NCBI RefSeq assembly: GCF_024400215.1
Contig: NZ_CP053748.1
Location: 2,046,001 to 2,110,000, forward strand
Direction: 5' to 3'
Source of the DNA: Massilia sp. erpn
Lineage (GTDB): Bacteria; Pseudomonadota; Gammaproteobacteria; Burkholderiales; Burkholderiaceae_D
DNA length: 64,000 nt
Positions 19,689 to 25,518 of the stretch are shown piece by piece. Below the pieces are notes generated by a model that was not told where the DNA came from, did not search any database, and saw nothing but the letters and a program-made list of their open reading frames with translations. How positions within the stretch are numbered: the first letter of the stretch is position 1; every line of letters starts with the position of its first letter. The translations under genes and the position numbers were made by a program.

Positions 19689-20489
19689 ATGGCTGACCTG
19701 ACACTCGACCGAGCCCTGGTCGACACCTCCGATGGCCCGCTCCTGTTTGTCGCAGCAGGTCGCGCCCCGGACACCGAGTTTGCCCAGGGACCGCACCAGC
19801 ATTCGCGCGGCCAGCTTTTCGGCTCGCTGCAGGGCTTGCTGTCGGTCGGCATCGAGAGCGGGGTTTGGGTGGTGCCGGCCATTCATGCCGTGTGGCTGCC
19901 GCCCCATCATGTGCATTCGGTGCGCTCGCACGGACCCTTCAACGGCTGGAGTGTCTTCATCGCCGAAGCGGCCTGCGAAACCCTGCCCAAGCATCCCTGC
20001 ACCCTGCGCGTATCCGGTCTGCTGCGCGAAGCGGTGTTGCGCGCCGGTACCTGGCCATACGAGGAGCTGGATGGCGCGCGTGAGCATGTAGCCGCCGTCA
20101 TCCTTGATGAAATCCGCCACCTGCCGGCCGAGACCTTCGGCCTGCCGCTGCCGAAGGATGCGCGCCTGCTGCGTATTGCGCGCGCCTTGATCGACAATCC
20201 CGCCGACGAGCGCGATCGGGAGCAGTGGGCAAGCTGGGGCGCCGTCAGCACGCGCACGTTGAGCCGCCGCTTCGTCGACGAGACGGGCTTCAGTTTCACG
20301 GCCTGGCGCCAGCGCGCCCGACTGATGCGCGCGCTCGAACTACTGGCGGCCGGCGAGCCGGTGACGCGCATCGCCATCGACCTTGGTTATTCCTCGGCTA
20401 CGGCCTTCATTACCTTGTTCCGGCGCACATTCGGGGCAACGCCCGCCGTCTATCGGGAGCGTCTGCAGCGCGGCGCTTCCAGCGATTGA
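19689..20489 (+). CDS. AraC-family transcriptional regulator
   Basis: A 266-residue regulator: an N-terminal cupin-like sensor half (HQHSRGQLFGS near residue 37, with VWLPPHHVHSV near residue 75) and a C-terminal double helix-turn-helix from about residue 165 to 258 containing WASWGAVSTRTLSRRF and AIDLGYSSATAFITLFRRTFG. The last segment is the diagnostic AraC signature. The effector and targets are unknown. A start at the ATG behind GAAGAGG is supported by the usual family length. Confidence 0.9.
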   Translation: MADLTLDRALVDTSDGPLLFVAAGRAPDTEFAQGPHQHSRGQLFGSLQGLLSVGIESGVWVVPAIHAVWLPPHHVHSVRSHGPFNGWSVFIAEAACETLPKHPCTLRVSGLLREAVLRAGTWPYEELDGAREHVAAVILDEIRHLPAETFGLPLPKDARLLRIARALIDNPADERDREQWASWGAVSTRTLSRRFVDETGFSFTAWRQRARLMRALELLAAGEPVTRIAIDLGYSSATAFITLFRRTFGATPAVYRERLQRGASSD

Positions 20490-20501
20490 GCGCCGCATCG
20501 T

Positions 20502-20882
20502 TCACTGGTCCCCGGCCAGCAATTCCCTGCCTTGCTGGATGGCCTGCTCTTCGCTGGCCGCGAATTTCACCGCGAAGCCGAAAGCCTTGCTGGCCGTTGC
20601 CGCCACCAAGCGCATCGCTGCCGGAATAGGCTTCTCTCCTTCGACGACAATCATCCCGCGGCATAGCTGCCGCATGCGCTCCTTGACCTTCTTGAAGAAG
20701 AGCGCCTTCTCCTTGCGTTCCTCGGCCGTTTCATCCTGACGATCATCGTGCCGGTGATTGGTGATCAGGACGAAGGGCTGGTCTTGCGCGAGGAGTTGCT
20801 GGATTTGCTCCGTAACGGGGATGCTGGATTCCACCTCTTCCCTGATGTAGACGAATGGCGCTTGCGAGATATCGATGAACAT
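20502..20882 (-). CDS. Hypothetical small alpha/beta protein
   Basis: A 126-residue cytoplasmic protein that I do not recognise. It alternates hydrophobic strands and charged helices: PFVYIREEV, PFVLITNHR, then a Lys/Glu-rich helix (about 60-85, EERKEKALFFKKVKER) and RGMIVVEGE. The pattern resembles STAS or similar small domains only superficially. The ATG follows AGGAAG at good spacing; longer in-frame starts upstream lack a ribosome binding site. It is convergent with the AraC gene (12 bases) and divergent from the rtcB transcript. Confidence 0.7.
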   Translation of the reverse strand: MFIDISQAPFVYIREEVESSIPVTEQIQQLLAQDQPFVLITNHRHDDRQDETAEERKEKALFFKKVKERMRQLCRGMIVVEGEKPIPAAMRLVAATASKAFGFAVKFAASEEQAIQQGRELLAGDQ

Positions 20883-21040
20883 GCTGACTTCCTGGTAAAA
20901 GAGAACGTTTGAAAAAGGCACGCAAGGCCGGCTTGCGCACCATTGCCAGCATGTCGTTTATGCGAATCCGGCGCTCACGCGGATGCGCCAATGCGTAGCG
21001 CGCAGCTGCCATTCCGTGCACGCGGTGATCAAAAAAACGC

Positions 21041-21070
21041 TTGACAGCGGATTCGGGACGGGTGCAGAAT
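21041..21070 (+). promoter_or_regulatory. Sigma-70 type promoter for the rtcB leader
   Basis: TTGACA (21041-21046) and CAGAAT (21065-21070) are separated by 18 bases, predicting a start near 21077, just upstream of the structured leader. No -24/-12 sigma-54 element was recognised, unlike the RtcR-controlled enterobacterial rtc operon. Confidence 0.65.
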
Positions 21071-21117
21071 CCGCTCCACTGATTTTTGTTCAACCCCAAT
21101 TCTTAGAAAGGACGACC

Positions 21118-21156
21118 ATGCCACGTACGGCTATCACATCGCAGCACACTCGATAG
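21118..21156 (+). CDS. Possible 12-residue leader peptide
   Basis: An ATG preceded by AAAGGA at 5 bases spacing opens a 12-codon frame (MPRTAITSQHTR) inside the structured leader. The Shine-Dalgarno lies in the 5' strand of the closing stem, so translation and folding would compete. It may be a chance frame; only its good initiation signal and place in an attenuator-like leader speak for it. Confidence 0.35.
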   Translation: MPRTAITSQHTR

Positions 21157-21220
21157 CCCTGAGCAGCGTGCTCGGGGCCAGGCAATATTGCCGCCCTGAG
21201 CCGGTCGTTCTTCTGACATG

Positions 21221-21252
21221 AACCCCGGTGAGGAAACTTGCTGGGGTTTTTT
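21221..21252 (+). terminator. Intrinsic terminator in rtcB leader
   Basis: AACCCC pairs with GGGGTT, extended inward by G-T and G-C pairs to about 11 bp around loop GGAAAC, followed by TTTTTT. It lies 34 bases upstream of the rtcB start, so some mechanism of read-through is needed, or rtcB has another promoter. Confidence 0.75.
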
Positions 21253-21269
21253 GTTTTCCAGAACCCCGG
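21241..21269 (+). promoter_or_regulatory. Competing (antiterminator-like) hairpin
   Basis: The terminator's 3' strand CTGGGGTT (21241-21248) can pair equally well with a second copy of AACCCCGG at 21262-21269. The two pairings exclude each other, as in classical attenuators. A further hairpin, GGCGTAACG/CGTTATGCC (21268-21290), encloses the rtcB ATG. Confidence 0.55.
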
Positions 21270-21285
21270 CGTAACGAAAGACGTT

Positions 21286-22494
21286 ATGCCAATCAAACAA
21301 AGCCTGCACAAAGGCCTGGTGCCTGTGCACATCTATACGGATGACATCGATCATTCGGCCATCCAGCAACTGCTGAATATTTCGAACCTGCCCATCGTGC
21401 ATCCGCACGTGGCGGCCATGCCCGACGTCCATGCCGGCATCGGCGCAACCGTCGGCAGCGTGATCCCGACGCGTGGCGCCATTATTCCGGCCGCCGTCGG
21501 CGTCGACATCGGCTGCGGCATGAATGCCGTGCGCACCACGCTGAGCGCGAGCCAGCTGCCCGACAACCTGGCCCGCGTGCGCAGCGCGATTGAAACGCTG
21601 ATACCGGTCGGTTTCGAGCAGCATGCTTTCGACAAGGTGCGCGGCTCGGCACATGCCCGCGTCGGCCGTCCGCTCAACGACCGCCTGGACCGCATCGTGG
21701 CGCGCCACAAAGGCATCATGAAGATGCAGCACAAGTTCGCGCAGACCTGGATCTGCCAGCTTGGCACGCTGGGCGGCGGCAACCACTTCATCGAGTTGTG
21801 TATCGATGAGGAGCAGCGCGTCTGGATCATGCTGCATTCGGGCTCGCGCGGCATCGGCAATGTCATCGGCCGCTACTTCATTTCCGCCGCGCGCAAGGAG
21901 ATGATGCGGCACAAGGTGAACCTGCCGGACCGCGACCTGTCCTACTTCAGCGAAGGTTCGGAACTGTTCGACGACTATGTGGAAGCGGTGGACTGGGCCC
22001 AGGATTACGCCATGCTGAACCGGCGCGAAATGATGCGTCGCGTGGTGGCCGCACTGGAGCCGCATGTCCCGCCGTTCAAGCTCGATGGCGAGGCGATCAA
22101 CTGCCACCACAACTACGTGGCGCAGGAAGCGCACTTCGGCCACAAGCTGTACGTCACCCGCAAGGGCGCGATTTCGGCGCGCGAAGGCGAGCTGGGAATC
22201 ATCCCCGGCAGCATGGGCGCCCGCAGCTACATCGTGCGCGGCAAGGGCAACGAGGAATCGTTCTGCTCCTGCTCGCACGGCGCGGGCCGCCGCATGAGCC
22301 GCAGCGAGGCGAAACGCAAATTCAACCGTTTCGACCTGGCGCAACAGACCCAGGGCATCGAATGCCGCAAGGATGGCGGCGTGGTGGACGAAATCCCCGC
22401 CGCCTATAAAGACATCGACCAGGTCATGGCGCACCAGTCCGACCTCGTCGAAATCGTGCACACGCTGAAGCAAGTCGTGTGCGTGAAAGGATAA
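21286..22494 (+). CDS. rtcB: RNA-splicing ligase RtcB
   Basis: A 402-residue GTP- and Mn-dependent ligase that joins RNA 2',3'-cyclic phosphate (3'-phosphate) ends to 5'-OH ends, repairing cleaved tRNA or rRNA. Family blocks are all present: MPDVHAG near residue 46, GVDIGCGMNAVRT near 76 with the metal-binding cysteine, GTLGGGNHFIE near 163, HSGSRGIGN near 187, and the C-terminal CSHGAGRRMSR with the histidine that is guanylylated. Length matches E. coli RtcB (408). The ATG chosen aligns with the family N-terminus; it has no good Shine-Dalgarno and sits in a hairpin, suggesting translational control. It heads a four-gene operon. Confidence 0.95.
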   Translation: MPIKQSLHKGLVPVHIYTDDIDHSAIQQLLNISNLPIVHPHVAAMPDVHAGIGATVGSVIPTRGAIIPAAVGVDIGCGMNAVRTTLSASQLPDNLARVRSAIETLIPVGFEQHAFDKVRGSAHARVGRPLNDRLDRIVARHKGIMKMQHKFAQTWICQLGTLGGGNHFIELCIDEEQRVWIMLHSGSRGIGNVIGRYFISAARKEMMRHKVNLPDRDLSYFSEGSELFDDYVEAVDWAQDYAMLNRREMMRRVVAALEPHVPPFKLDGEAINCHHNYVAQEAHFGHKLYVTRKGAISAREGELGIIPGSMGARSYIVRGKGNEESFCSCSHGAGRRMSRSEAKRKFNRFDLAQQTQGIECRKDGGVVDEIPAAYKDIDQVMAHQSDLVEIVHTLKQVVCVKG

Positions 22495-22497
22495 GCA

Positions 22498-22644
22498 ATG
22501 AAGGTAACGATTAAATTGCCGAAGCCGCGCAATCCGCTGGCCGTGCTGGCACGCCAGCGCAAGGCCGGTGGTCACCAGCGCAGCGAACAATCGCGGCGTG
22601 AATTGAAACAGCAACTGCGCCGCCAGCTGGCGCGAGAGGAATAA
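22498..22644 (+). CDS. 48-residue basic small protein in rtcB operon
   Basis: A short gene that starts 3 bases after the rtcB stop and ends 4 bases before the MoxR gene, with the same strand and codon bias. The product is very basic, with a beta-like start (MKVTIKLPKPRNPLA) and a Gln/Arg/Glu helix (about residues 26-48, SEQSRRELKQQLRRQL). Such a peptide could bind RNA or a partner ATPase. Tight packing on both sides argues that it is real. I do not know a family for it. Confidence 0.65.
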   Translation: MKVTIKLPKPRNPLAVLARQRKAGGHQRSEQSRRELKQQLRRQLAREE

Positions 22645-22648
22645 GTAA

Positions 22649-23722
22649 ATGCAATCTGCAATCATGTTGAACCAGGAGCAGGCGATCGACTTCCTGCTGC
22701 ACGTGGCGATCGCGCGTCCGGTATTCATGTGGGGTCCGCCGGGCATCGGCAAGAGCGCGCTGGTGCGCCGCTTCGCCGATGCGGTGGGCATGGAGTGCGT
22801 CTCCCTGCTGGGCAGCCAGCTGGCGCCGGAAGACCTGCTGGGCATCCCGCAGATCGACGGCAAGTGCTCGCGCTTTTTCCCGCCGGCGAACATCGTGCGC
22901 GACGAACCGTTCGTGCTGTTCCTGGACGAGCTGAATGCGTCCTCGCATGAGATCCAGAAGGCGTTCTATTCGCTGATCCTGGACCAGCGCATCGGCGAGT
23001 ACAGCCTGCCGCAAGGGACGGTCGTGATCGGCGCGGGCAACCGCGCCAAGGATGCGGCCATCGTCAAGCTCATGCCGTCGGCGCTGGTGAACCGCCTGGT
23101 GCACATCCATCTGCGCGCGGACCATCGCCAATGGCTGGAATGGGCGGCTGCAGAGGGCAGCATCCATCCATGGGTGCTGGAGTACATCCAGCTGCGTCCC
23201 GACCACCTGTGGAGCGAGCCGCCGAAGCATGAGGAGCCGTTCTCCACGCCGCGCAGCTGGCATATGCTGTCCGATGCGCTGCATTCCTTCGGCGAGGAGA
23301 CCAGCGACGATATGCTGGACGCACTCGCCTACGGCCTGCTGTCGCCGACCCATGCCGGCAACTTCAAAGGCTTCCTCAAGCAGCTGCGCCACAAGCACGG
23401 CCTGCACGCCATCCTGAAAGGCGAGCAGCACTGGCCTGACGCGCCGAGCGACCGTGACGTGCTGTACTTCCTGGCGCAATCCTTCCGCGCGCATCTGTTG
23501 AAGGAATTGCCGGAGGAAGAAGCGTCGGTGCGCAGCGCCCACCATGCCTTGTCGATCCGTGCCAAGGACATGCTGCGCGACCTGGCGCGCATCAGCGTCG
23601 AAATCGCGCAATCGATCCTGGGCGAGGATGGGCAAGGCCGCCGCCTGCCGGCCTGGTTCCTGGTCGAAGTGGCGCGCGACCTGCCACGCCTGGCTGGCCG
23701 CGGCCAGAAAGAGAGCGCATGA
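22649..23722 (+). CDS. MoxR-type AAA+ ATPase
   Basis: A 357-residue AAA+ ATPase. Walker A is GPPGIGKS (about residue 30), Walker B is LFLDELN (about 90), sensor 1 is VIGAGNRAKD (about 130), and an arginine finger lies in ALVNRLVH. This matches MoxR-like ATPases, which act as chaperones that load or remodel VWA-domain partners. The next gene, overlapping by ATGA, encodes a VWA protein, fitting the MoxR-VWA partnership. Linkage to rtcB suggests that the pair remodels an RNP such as a ribosome or damaged RNA complex, which is inference. Confidence 0.88.
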   Translation: MQSAIMLNQEQAIDFLLHVAIARPVFMWGPPGIGKSALVRRFADAVGMECVSLLGSQLAPEDLLGIPQIDGKCSRFFPPANIVRDEPFVLFLDELNASSHEIQKAFYSLILDQRIGEYSLPQGTVVIGAGNRAKDAAIVKLMPSALVNRLVHIHLRADHRQWLEWAAAEGSIHPWVLEYIQLRPDHLWSEPPKHEEPFSTPRSWHMLSDALHSFGEETSDDMLDALAYGLLSPTHAGNFKGFLKQLRHKHGLHAILKGEQHWPDAPSDRDVLYFLAQSFRAHLLKELPEEEASVRSAHHALSIRAKDMLRDLARISVEIAQSILGEDGQGRRLPAWFLVEVARDLPRLAGRGQKESA

Positions 23723-25518
23723 GCAAGGACAAGAGGCAGGATTCAGCGGCGCTTGCGCGCCAGGCCGGGATCGAGCAGGTACGCGCTCACCTTGTGCTGG
23801 GCGCTGTCGCAAAGGGCGGCCGGCTTTACGTCGACGAGCAGCAGCGTTTCGTGCCGGCCAAAGCCTGGCTCGCCGTTGCGCCTGATGGCAATGTATGGCT
23901 GCATCCAAAGCGGCGCGCGCAGCCGGAGGAATGGGCACGTGTCATTGGCATCGTTCTTTCCTGCCTCGGTCTTGGGCTGGTGCGCCAGCGCGAACCCGCC
24001 GTGCTGTGGGAAGTTGCCAGCCTGGTGACTGCCATGCGCTTTTGCGCGGAACTGAAGCTGGGCGAGTTGCCGGAAGAATGGCGCCTGCCCGAATGCGAAG
24101 ACGCCAGCGCGGAAAGCCTGTTCCAGCGCTTCTGCATCGATGGGTGTCCGGAACCGCTGCAGGCATGGCATGCGGACATCACGGGAGGCGGGCAGCTGTT
24201 TGTTGCGCTCGATGGGAAGCTACCGCCATGGCAGCGCAAGACGCTCTGGCACGAACTGCTGGCGGACGGCATTGCGCGTGGTGTGGGCAGGGCGCTTGCC
24301 ATCGCAGGCGGCGCGCCGTTGGAGCAGGCAAGCAAGCCGCATAGCCGCGAGCACCGCGCGCGCCGCCGCATGATGGATTGCTATCCCCTGCTCGGCGCGC
24401 TGGCGGCCAGTTTCGACCTGGAGAATGATATTCGCATCTGCCAGCAATACGATATCCGTGTCGCCGCCATCGACGTTGGTGCGCGCCGCATCTGGATCAA
24501 TCCGGCGGCTGGCCTGGACGACGATGAAACATTGTTCGTACTTGCCCATGAGTTGCTGCATGCGGGGCTGAACCATGCTTCGCGGCGGCGCGGACGCGAT
24601 CCCGTGCTGTGGAACGTCGCCTGCGATTTTGCGATCAACAGCTGGCTGATCGAGATGCAGGTCGGCGCGCCACCCGCCATCGGCCTGCTGTACGACGCCG
24701 CGCTGGCGGGACAGTCCTCGGACGAAATCTATGACGGCCTGGCATCCGATATCCGCCGCGCGCGCAAGCTGGCCACCATGCGCGGTGCCGGCCAGCCCGA
24801 TCTTCTTGGTGAGGACAGCGGCAGCCAGTTCACCGATGCCGAGGAATACTGCCGCCGGGCGCTGGCGCAAGGCATGGACCGCTGGGAGCACGATGGCCGC
24901 CGCGGTACGGTGCCGGCCGGCTTGCTGGAAGAGATACGCAGCCTGGCGCAGCCGCCGATTCCCTGGGATGCCAGGCTGGCGCACTGGTTCGACGAGCGTT
25001 TTCCACCGCTCGAAATGCGCCGCAGCTATGCGCGGCCATCGCGCCGGCAGGGCGCAACGCCGGATATCCCGCGCCCATCGCTGTGCAAGCCTCCCGAGGA
25101 GGAGCGCAAGAGCCGCGTCTTCGCCGTGCTGCTCGATACGTCCGGCTCGATGGAGCCGGCGATGCTGGGCAAGGCACTGGGCGCGATCGCCAGCTACGCC
25201 ATGGCGCGCGACGTCATTGCCGTGCGCCTGGTGTGCTGCGATGCGATGGCCTATGACTGCGGCTGGGTCGAACCGGAAAACCTGCTGCATCGCTTCACTT
25301 TGCGCGGACGCGGAGGCACTGTGCTGCAACCGGGCTTCGACCATCTGCAGGATCTGGCACAGCAAGGTGAAATGCCGGCGCATGGACCGGTGCTGGTGGT
25401 CACGGACGGCTGGTGCGAGGACAAGCTTGAAACCCGCATGGACCACGCCTACCTGATGGCCGACGGGCGCCGCCTGCCATTCACCCCGCGCGGCGAAATT
25501 TTCCACGTCACATCGTAA
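23719..25518 (+). CDS. VWA-domain protein with HExxH metallopeptidase-like domain (DUF2201 type)
   Basis: A 599-residue cytoplasmic protein. The middle part has LAHELLHAGLNHASRR near residue 275, an HExxH zinc motif with a third histidine, typical of the putative metallopeptidase domain DUF2201_N. The C-terminal part (about 470-590) is a VWA-like domain with the MIDAS motif DTSGSM and VVTDGWCEDK. The first 200 residues look like an additional uncharacterised domain (LYVDEQQRFVPAKAWLAVAPDG). It overlaps the MoxR gene by ATGA. The usual model is that MoxR drives the VWA protein to act on a target; here the target may be an RNA-repair substrate. Confidence 0.85.
   Translation: MSKDKRQDSAALARQAGIEQVRAHLVLGAVAKGGRLYVDEQQRFVPAKAWLAVAPDGNVWLHPKRRAQPEEWARVIGIVLSCLGLGLVRQREPAVLWEVASLVTAMRFCAELKLGELPEEWRLPECEDASAESLFQRFCIDGCPEPLQAWHADITGGGQLFVALDGKLPPWQRKTLWHELLADGIARGVGRALAIAGGAPLEQASKPHSREHRARRRMMDCYPLLGALAASFDLENDIRICQQYDIRVAAIDVGARRIWINPAAGLDDDETLFVLAHELLHAGLNHASRRRGRDPVLWNVACDFAINSWLIEMQVGAPPAIGLLYDAALAGQSSDEIYDGLASDIRRARKLATMRGAGQPDLLGEDSGSQFTDAEEYCRRALAQGMDRWEHDGRRGTVPAGLLEEIRSLAQPPIPWDARLAHWFDERFPPLEMRRSYARPSRRQGATPDIPRPSLCKPPEEERKSRVFAVLLDTSGSMEPAMLGKALGAIASYAMARDVIAVRLVCCDAMAYDCGWVEPENLLHRFTLRGRGGTVLQPGFDHLQDLAQQGEMPAHGPVLVVTDGWCEDKLETRMDHAYLMADGRRLPFTPRGEIFHVTS

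Follow-up and report, generated by a model that had tools for sequence, protein, structure and literature searches.

A probable ribosome-mediated transcription attenuator in the leader of an rtcB RNA-repair operon of Massilia sp. erpn

What does the DNA between a promoter and the start codon of an RNA ligase gene, rtcB, contribute to the expression of that gene? The question is raised by a locus of Massilia sp. erpn (assembly GCF_024400215.1), in which we analysed a stretch of 64,000 nt (NZ_CP053748.1, positions 2,046,001 to 2,110,000, forward strand), referred to here as the window. A preliminary description of this DNA had recognized an attenuator layout ahead of rtcB, and had proposed that the leader RNA senses cleavage or ligation or, alternatively, that it is an independent small RNA. 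Our analysis indicates that the interval is probably the 5' leader of the rtcB operon, acting as a ribosome-mediated transcription attenuator. Its features, and those of the genes that follow, are given with the source of each assignment.

21041..21070, + strand: sigma-70-like promoter, TTGACA-N18-CAGAAT (motif scan)
21107..21112, + strand: Shine-Dalgarno sequence (SD) AAAGGA of the leader ORF (AAGG lies 6-8 nt 5' of the start codon in 80/80 copies)
21110..21117, + strand: arm S1, GGACGACC, predicted to sequester the SD by pairing with 21203-21210 (S1:S8 permutations; helices 1-2 of the alignment)
21118..21156, + strand: leader ORF MPRTAITSQHTR, stop codon TAG (ORF present in 80/80 copies)
21129..21135, + strand: arm A (GGCTATC), pairs with 21152-21158 (helix 4 of the alignment)
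21152..21164, + strand: arm B, GATAGCCCTGAGC, overlaps the leader stop codon; partner A or C
21170..21177, + strand: arm C, GCTCGGGG, the hub; possible partners B, D or E (helix 5 of the alignment)
21194..21204, + strand: arm D, CCCTGAGCCGG; partner C, or GCCGG of D with the terminator 5' arm
21203..21214, + strand: arm S8, GGTCGTTCTTCT; partner the leader SD region (fold, permutations, alignment)
21220..21252, + strand: intrinsic terminator E:F with T-tract (motif scan; helix 6 of the alignment)
21262..21269, + strand: second copy of AACCCCGG, able to pair with the terminator 3' arm F
21268..21290, + strand: hairpin GGCGTAACG-AAAGA-CGTTATGCC around the rtcB start codon (predicted fold)
21286..22494, + strand: rtcB, RNA ligase, 402 aa, clade 1 (PF01139, E 7.8e-131)
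22498..22644, + strand: small basic ORF, 48 aa, MKVTIKLPKPRNPL..., separated from rtcB by 3 nt
22649..23722, + strand: MoxR-type AAA ATPase gene, probable operon member (Pfam)
23719..25518, + strand: DUF2201 metallopeptidase-like/VWA protein gene, probable operon member (Pfam)

The sigma-70 promoter named in the preliminary description was recovered at 21041-21070 as the single such site in a scan of 20000-22500, where 0.7 would be expected by chance; taken alone, one site in 2.5 kb is not significant. A like site (TTGACN-N16-19-.A...T) stands ahead of 70 of the 80 copies of the element that we collected, compared with a mean of 0.8 and a maximum of 4 in 100 shuffles. The intrinsic terminator described before rtcB was likewise confirmed, with arms GAACCCCGG (21220-21228, 5', E) and GCTGGGGTT (21240-21248, 3', F) followed by a T-tract. 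Five terminator-like sites were found in 20000-22500 (2.6 expected), and the one between the leader and rtcB has the most pairs; across the 80 copies, 99.7% of the cells of this helix (helix 6) are paired, and a T run of at least 4 is present in every one. The T-tract is separated from rtcB by 33 nt in the window, and because the scan found no further promoter in that gap, expression of rtcB should need readthrough of the terminator. Rfam 15 gave no match above the gathering score anywhere in the 64-kb window, the best sub-threshold match being His_leader (20.2 bits, gathering 49, E 0.34), ARAGORN called no tRNA or tmRNA there, and a blastn search of a plasmid collection gave no match. Upstream of the leader, on the - strand, lies a divergent ORF of 129 aa (20505-20891), for which neither Pfam nor NCBIfam gave a match at E <= 0.001.

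The interval 21076-21254 is predicted to fold with -73.8 kcal/mol (z = -5.8), and none of 200 shuffles was as good. Of the 105-nt domain described previously, the closing stem, GGACGACC (21110-21117) with GGTCGTTC (21203-21210), was borne out, and the three internal hairpins were not, as the minimum-energy fold has two branches inside that stem. In an alignment of the 80 copies, 96.7% of cells pair, falling to 46.7-56.6% when partners are slid by one column. Both-side changes occur at 11 pairs (shuffles 4.1) and in 90 cells (shuffles 33.9), with 0 of 500 shuffles as high by either count; these figures lean toward structure, because the model structure guided the alignment and the shuffle and permutation controls, which take no account of phylogeny, keep shared ancestry in. 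The first 17 copies alone contain no pairs with both-side changes. When the alignment was left unused, the SD-hiding helix S1:S8 still covaried (0/2000 permutations as good), and B:C and C:D covaried weakly (33/2000 and 199/2000). Neither D:E, a short pairing of about 5 pairs, nor C:E gave a covariation signal (1442/2000 and 1037/2000 permutations as good); several of the conserved arms hardly vary and are hence little informative. In the helix formed by arm A (helix 4), one column pair comes as UA, GC, AU and GU types. The conservation and covariation upstream of homologous rtcB genes, whose absence the preliminary description had named as a refutation, are present, and the attenuator layout is supported.

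The same domain, called cloverleaf-like in the preliminary description, is no free-standing RNA: it contains a 12-codon ORF (MPRTAITSQHTR*, 21118-21156) with its own SD, which that description overlooked. The leader ORF is present in 80/80 copies, beginning with ATG in 79 and GTG in 1, and its start-to-stop distances of 27, 33, 36, 39 or 48 nt differ by whole codons. A structural TAG, embedded in TAGCYCYG or near variants, is the first in-frame stop in 78/80; in copy L096 another TAG precedes it by two codons, with the structural TAG remaining in frame, and in copy L098 the stop is TAA. The spacing from this TAG to CTCGGGG (arm C), by contrast, leaves each of the three possible remainders on division by 3 (in 13, 43 and 24 of the 80 copies), and is not a multiple of 3 in 67/80. 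The peptide itself differs strongly from genus to genus, as the examples MPRTAINNSNNR, MFEQAGSKLYYH and MPRNTANNNQNNI illustrate. This is the pattern expected of a translated leader, and it is from the conservation of the frame that we infer translation.

The element is found in a minority of the relatives of Massilia sp. erpn. A 220-base query located it in 11/74 genomes of the same genus, and a covariance model built from 17 copies and run on 392 sampled genomes of the host family located it in 73 (79 places, at >=55 bits); 97 genomes matched at E <= 0.001, and the matches that were dropped score <=36 bits. The 79 places, together with one copy from genome G057, make up the 80 copies. A pattern scan of named genomes yielded 66 stretches, 26 of which were re-scored with the model and 9 of these 26 proved to be full elements; the scan places carriers, confirmed by the model among those re-scored, in Pseudoduganella, Duganella, Massilia, Telluria, Janthinobacterium, Collimonas, Undibacterium, Noviherbaspirillum and Paucimonas. 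Model searches across the order (399 genomes) and the class (321) gave no match above 42.9 bits outside the family, and none that was convincing. Outside the family, full elements with rtcB were seen only in two MAGs labelled Rhodoferax (L150 and L174), which may reflect misbinning or transfer. The best match from elsewhere (L176, <=42.9 bits), from another family of the order, does not have the ORF-TAG-CCCCG architecture and was rejected as a copy. At that locus (G623:C1:3086097-3086216), a short ORF and a terminator lie immediately upstream of a gene that, judged by eye from its opening residues, is elongation-factor-G-like. A tblastn search of 11 weak-match loci (L176-L184, L187 and L193, among which L183, L184 and L193 come from the host family itself) found none that encodes RtcB.

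The RtcB of the window aligns with solved RtcB chains in the motifs around its Cys and His residues, which we take to be catalytic. An RtcB search of the 392 genomes gave matches in 164, and all 46 of the clade-1 genes (>=74% identity) among the matches listed lie 32-362 nt behind the element on the same strand (one of these 46 matches covers residues 48-402 and one 1-324). The other listed matches, at about 56-62% identity, form clade 2, and 8 of the 8 clade-2 genes that were read have no leader, either by eye or by model search at E <= 1. The window's genome carries a second rtcB (L212, G000:C1:2177592-2178779) with 59% identity and no leader. In 27 of the 73 genomes with the element there is no clade-1 rtcB among the matches listed, and one of these, G373, has a fragment. 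Fragments of rtcB remain behind the leader in L070, L085 and L094. Partial rtcB matches behind an intact leader were noted in L070, L085, L088, L094 and L105, suggesting that these genes are truncated or decayed. As far as sequences can tell, then, the element combines a conserved ORF and frame, a terminator and main helices that covary with linkage to one rtcB clade.

Downstream, a basic ORF of 47-60 residues occurs in 63/80 loci. It lies >=400 nt away, behind rtcB, in 38 of them and <400 nt from the leader in 25, and where rtcB is missing an ORF of 56-60 aa is usually next. The member in the window has a KPRNPL...AG.H motif, and 13 positions are invariant in 11 members that were aligned. The product has no Pfam match and no PADLOC family, its two NCBIfam matches are far below the cut-off (E 0.09), and the named relatives among the matches listed are hypothetical or uncharacterized proteins and, once, an alpha-galactosidase. 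AlphaFold2 predicts two helices with low confidence (mean pLDDT 72.7, pTM 0.31). With spacings of 3, 4 and -4 nt between rtcB, the small ORF, the MoxR gene and the DUF2201-VWA gene, these four probably form an operon in the window, judged by layout; elsewhere, rtcB was seen to be followed by the MoxR and VWA genes at some loci only. Six genomes have, 3-6 kb downstream of the leader copy at rtcB, a second one (L019-L024) that precedes a GNAT gene, and in G057 a GNAT-preceding copy (L025) is the only one found. The similarity of the GNAT gene to RimI is below the cut-off.

The second AACCCCGG that had been pointed out at 21262-21269 is indeed present, and it runs on into an inverted repeat around the rtcB start (21268-21290). 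The hairpin formed by this repeat is, with the leader ORF, what the preliminary description missed. Of the 49 loci screened, among them L061, which has no rtcB there, 39 have a perfect inverted arm of >=5 bases before the start codon, compared with a maximum of 6 in 200 shuffles. The window's own hairpin contains a G-U pair and so is among the 10 loci missed by this perfect-arm test. How well the terminator 3' arm can pair with the next 90 bases was compared with 100 shuffles, and the real sequence ranks in the best 5% at 25/47 rtcB loci, 2/7 GNAT loci and 6/26 others. Antitermination may plausibly be coupled to release of the start codon.

We propose that these arms operate as follows, and infer rather than observe that the leader is translated, that the arms switch, what stalls the ribosome and how the second AACCCCGG acts. 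RNA polymerase would start at about 21077, and a ribosome would load on the leader ORF (21118-21156). A ribosome that reaches the TAG would cover arm B, leaving C to pair with D and the E:F terminator to form; a terminated RNA of about 175 nt, the expected OFF product, would be released and rtcB would remain silent. After release, S8 would pair with the leader SD and close the leader ORF. A ribosome stalled inside the ORF would instead hold S1 (and A) open, so that B could take C, and with C occupied, D would be free to hold the terminator 5' arm E. The terminator thus blocked, polymerase would enter rtcB, the small basic ORF, the MoxR ATPase gene and the VWA gene. The free F arm could then pair with the second AACCCCGG, which would also loosen the hairpin over the rtcB start codon.

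Folding with the ribosome footprint masked was in keeping with this scheme on average. Before F is made, mean pairing of E in the 80 copies reaches 0.53-0.54 when codons 6-7 occupy the A site, then declines to 0.48, 0.41 and 0.39 at codons 8, 9 and 10, and to 0.34 at codon 11 or the stop; it is 0.35 without a ribosome. In eight example copies the partner gained by E is mainly D. The effect varies among copies: in the window's own sequence E pairing is raised only at codons 2-4 (0.59-0.80) and from codon 5 onward equals the no-ribosome value of about 0.33, and among the eight examples it is clear at codon 9 in L058 and L063 only, and at codon 11 in none. With B and C masked, mimicking a trapped B:C hairpin, a ribosome at codon 10 gives a mean of 0.53 vs 0.34 at the stop; under the same mask, but with the ribosome moved to codon 9 or 11, the window, L099, L100 and L105 are flat. 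In folds that include F, the terminator is present in the minimum-energy state. The competing arms are present, and the masked folds shift in the expected direction, weakly and on average; that direction fits a classical attenuator, but the energy calculations stop short of proving that a stalled ribosome prevails over the terminator.

If the leader is an attenuator, what would stall the ribosome? We see an even chance that it is a general sensor of slow translation, of the kind proposed for the PA5471.1 leader of armZ in P. aeruginosa and responding, for example, to ribosome-targeting antibiotics or damaged ribosomes, in which the identity of the leader codons matters little. Such a sensor would fit the strong divergence of the peptide among genera and the second copies before a GNAT gene that has no evident role in tRNA metabolism. 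It would also fit the similar layout before armZ, an RtcB-like gene whose expression rises under ribosome-targeting drugs or when Cca is lost; in armZ itself, however, codons 3 and 4 of the leader matter for the Cca response. Nor does a general sensor predict the codon bias that we observed, which is specific to the reading frame. In the variable part of 59 distinct leaders, NAY codons (Asn, His, Tyr, Asp) account for 137/351 in frame, vs 16/292 and 37/292 in the other two frames and 13% in seven genes of the window. Shuffles gave 70.4 +- 7.2, and 0/3000 were as high as 137.

This frame-specific excess is an argument for an attenuator tuned to particular tRNAs, with Asn and His (and Tyr, Asp or Gln in some clades) as control codons: an anticodon nuclease would remove these tRNAs, the ribosome would stall, and the ligase able to mend them would be made. 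Since the leader codons favour Asn and His, damage to specific tRNAs may be the signal. From clade to clade, Asn, His, Tyr and Asp replace one another in the leaders, and colicin E5 cuts the tRNAs for Tyr, His, Asn and Asp (PMC9223846). We nevertheless regard this tuned form as somewhat unlikely. Among 17 cluster representatives the excess is modest (29/100 vs 20.0 +- 3.9, with 50/3000 shuffles as high); Asn (16 vs 8.1), Gln (12 vs 6.0) and His (9 vs 5.0) are raised, but Tyr (3 vs 4.1) and Asp (1 vs 2.9) are not. A single NAY codon (CAC) occurs in the variable part of the leader of the window, and a bias toward polar residues in general would look alike. A uniform preference for all four queuosine tRNAs was rejected, as it was unsupported after clustering. 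The NAY bias is a lead toward tRNA-specific sensing, and no demonstration of it. The fullest version of the proposal, in which the leader peptide gauges the supply of the tRNAs that anticodon nucleases cut (those for Asn, His and related ones) and thereby switches on the ligase and its partners without a protein sensor, the basic protein of 47-60 aa being a core repair partner, strikes us as unlikely.

It is quite improbable that the interval is instead the independent sRNA gene of about 175 nt that the preliminary description had allowed, one that happens to lie before rtcB and acts in trans, perhaps through the second AACCCCGG. The element has its own promoter and terminator, is kept in the 27/73 genomes without clade-1 rtcB among the matches listed, and also stands before the GNAT gene, all of which an sRNA would accommodate. 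It would not account for the conserved leader ORF, for the promoterless gap of 33 nt before rtcB, or for the presence of the element at 46/46 clade-1 rtcB genes among the matches listed. Moreover, because 25 loci without intact rtcB have the small ORF <400 nt downstream, the element still heads a gene there. Least probable is that the leader RNA is its own sensor of cleavage or ligation, as a substrate of RtcB or of a ribotoxin: a stable fold ahead of an RNA ligase invites the idea, but no feature that we found points to the RNA as sensor, GNAT and small-ORF genes are preceded by the element too, the conserved frame and SD would be left unexplained, and an ORF with an SD makes ribosome-mediated sensing far more likely. 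A Y RNA/Ro60 (Yrl) reading was rejected, as a search for TROVE genes gave 0 matches in the window's genome (G000) and was positive in the control, Deinobacterium chartae.

If the attenuator works as we read it, rtcB would probably be made only when a ribosome stalls on the leader, tying RNA repair to damage in translation. Coupling of rtcB transcription to stalling is a testable signal, and the make-up of the leader codons hints at the substrate. The analysis also singles out an uncharacterised small basic protein, whose gene persists downstream of the leader at loci that lack rtcB.

Attenuators of the his and trp amino-acid operons combine a leader ORF with mutually exclusive hairpins. The rtcB leader resembles them in its ORF, its candidate exclusive hairpins A:B, B:C, C:D and D:E, and its terminator E:F. 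Unlike them, it precedes an operon that is not for amino-acid biosynthesis, has no long run of a single amino acid, and adds an SD-hiding helix as well as a hairpin that encloses the start codon of the following gene.

The closest precedent that our literature searches showed is PA5471.1, the leader of armZ (PA5471) in P. aeruginosa, for which a 13-residue peptide and a terminator before an RtcB-family gene have been described, and transcription attenuation with ribosome stalling as the signal has been proposed (PMC3516279, PMC12057347, PMC13041342). Common to both are a short leader ORF (13 residues there, 12 here), a terminator and an RtcB-family gene; the likeness is one of layout rather than of compared leader sequences. 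The armZ gene encodes an RtcB-like anti-repressor beside a predicted release-factor gene, with the leader about 250 bp upstream, whereas the rtcB of the window belongs to another RtcB group and is followed by the small basic ORF and the MoxR and VWA genes. The window's RtcB scores 153.5 bits against TIGR03073 (release_rtcB), below the cut-off of 271.8, and no prfH (release-factor) neighbour was found among the seven proteins scanned by Pfam and the small ORF. In a related context, RtcB2-PrfH is reported to protect E. coli from colicin E3 and not from E5 or D (PMC9223846).

A different solution is known from the Salmonella rsr-yrlBA-rtcBA operon, which answers to tRNA fragments via RtcR, an activator with a CARF domain that binds them (PMC7790460). 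Both systems would tie expression of RtcB to broken tRNA, a candidate signal here, through a sensor protein in Salmonella and through the leader RNA in Massilia; in contrast to the rsr operon, the window's genome has no TROVE gene, and the promoter found is of sigma-70 type. Among the papers listed by literature searches for an attenuator or related RNA in an rtcB leader, the armZ precedent was the only one, and none dealt with the present leader. On sequence evidence, we therefore describe what appears to be a conserved leader-peptide attenuator of an RNA-repair operon, confined almost entirely to one family, new in its details and known in kind. Together with PA5471.1 and armZ, it suggests that leader-peptide attenuation may recur as a mode of control of RtcB-family genes, besides the RtcR sensor.
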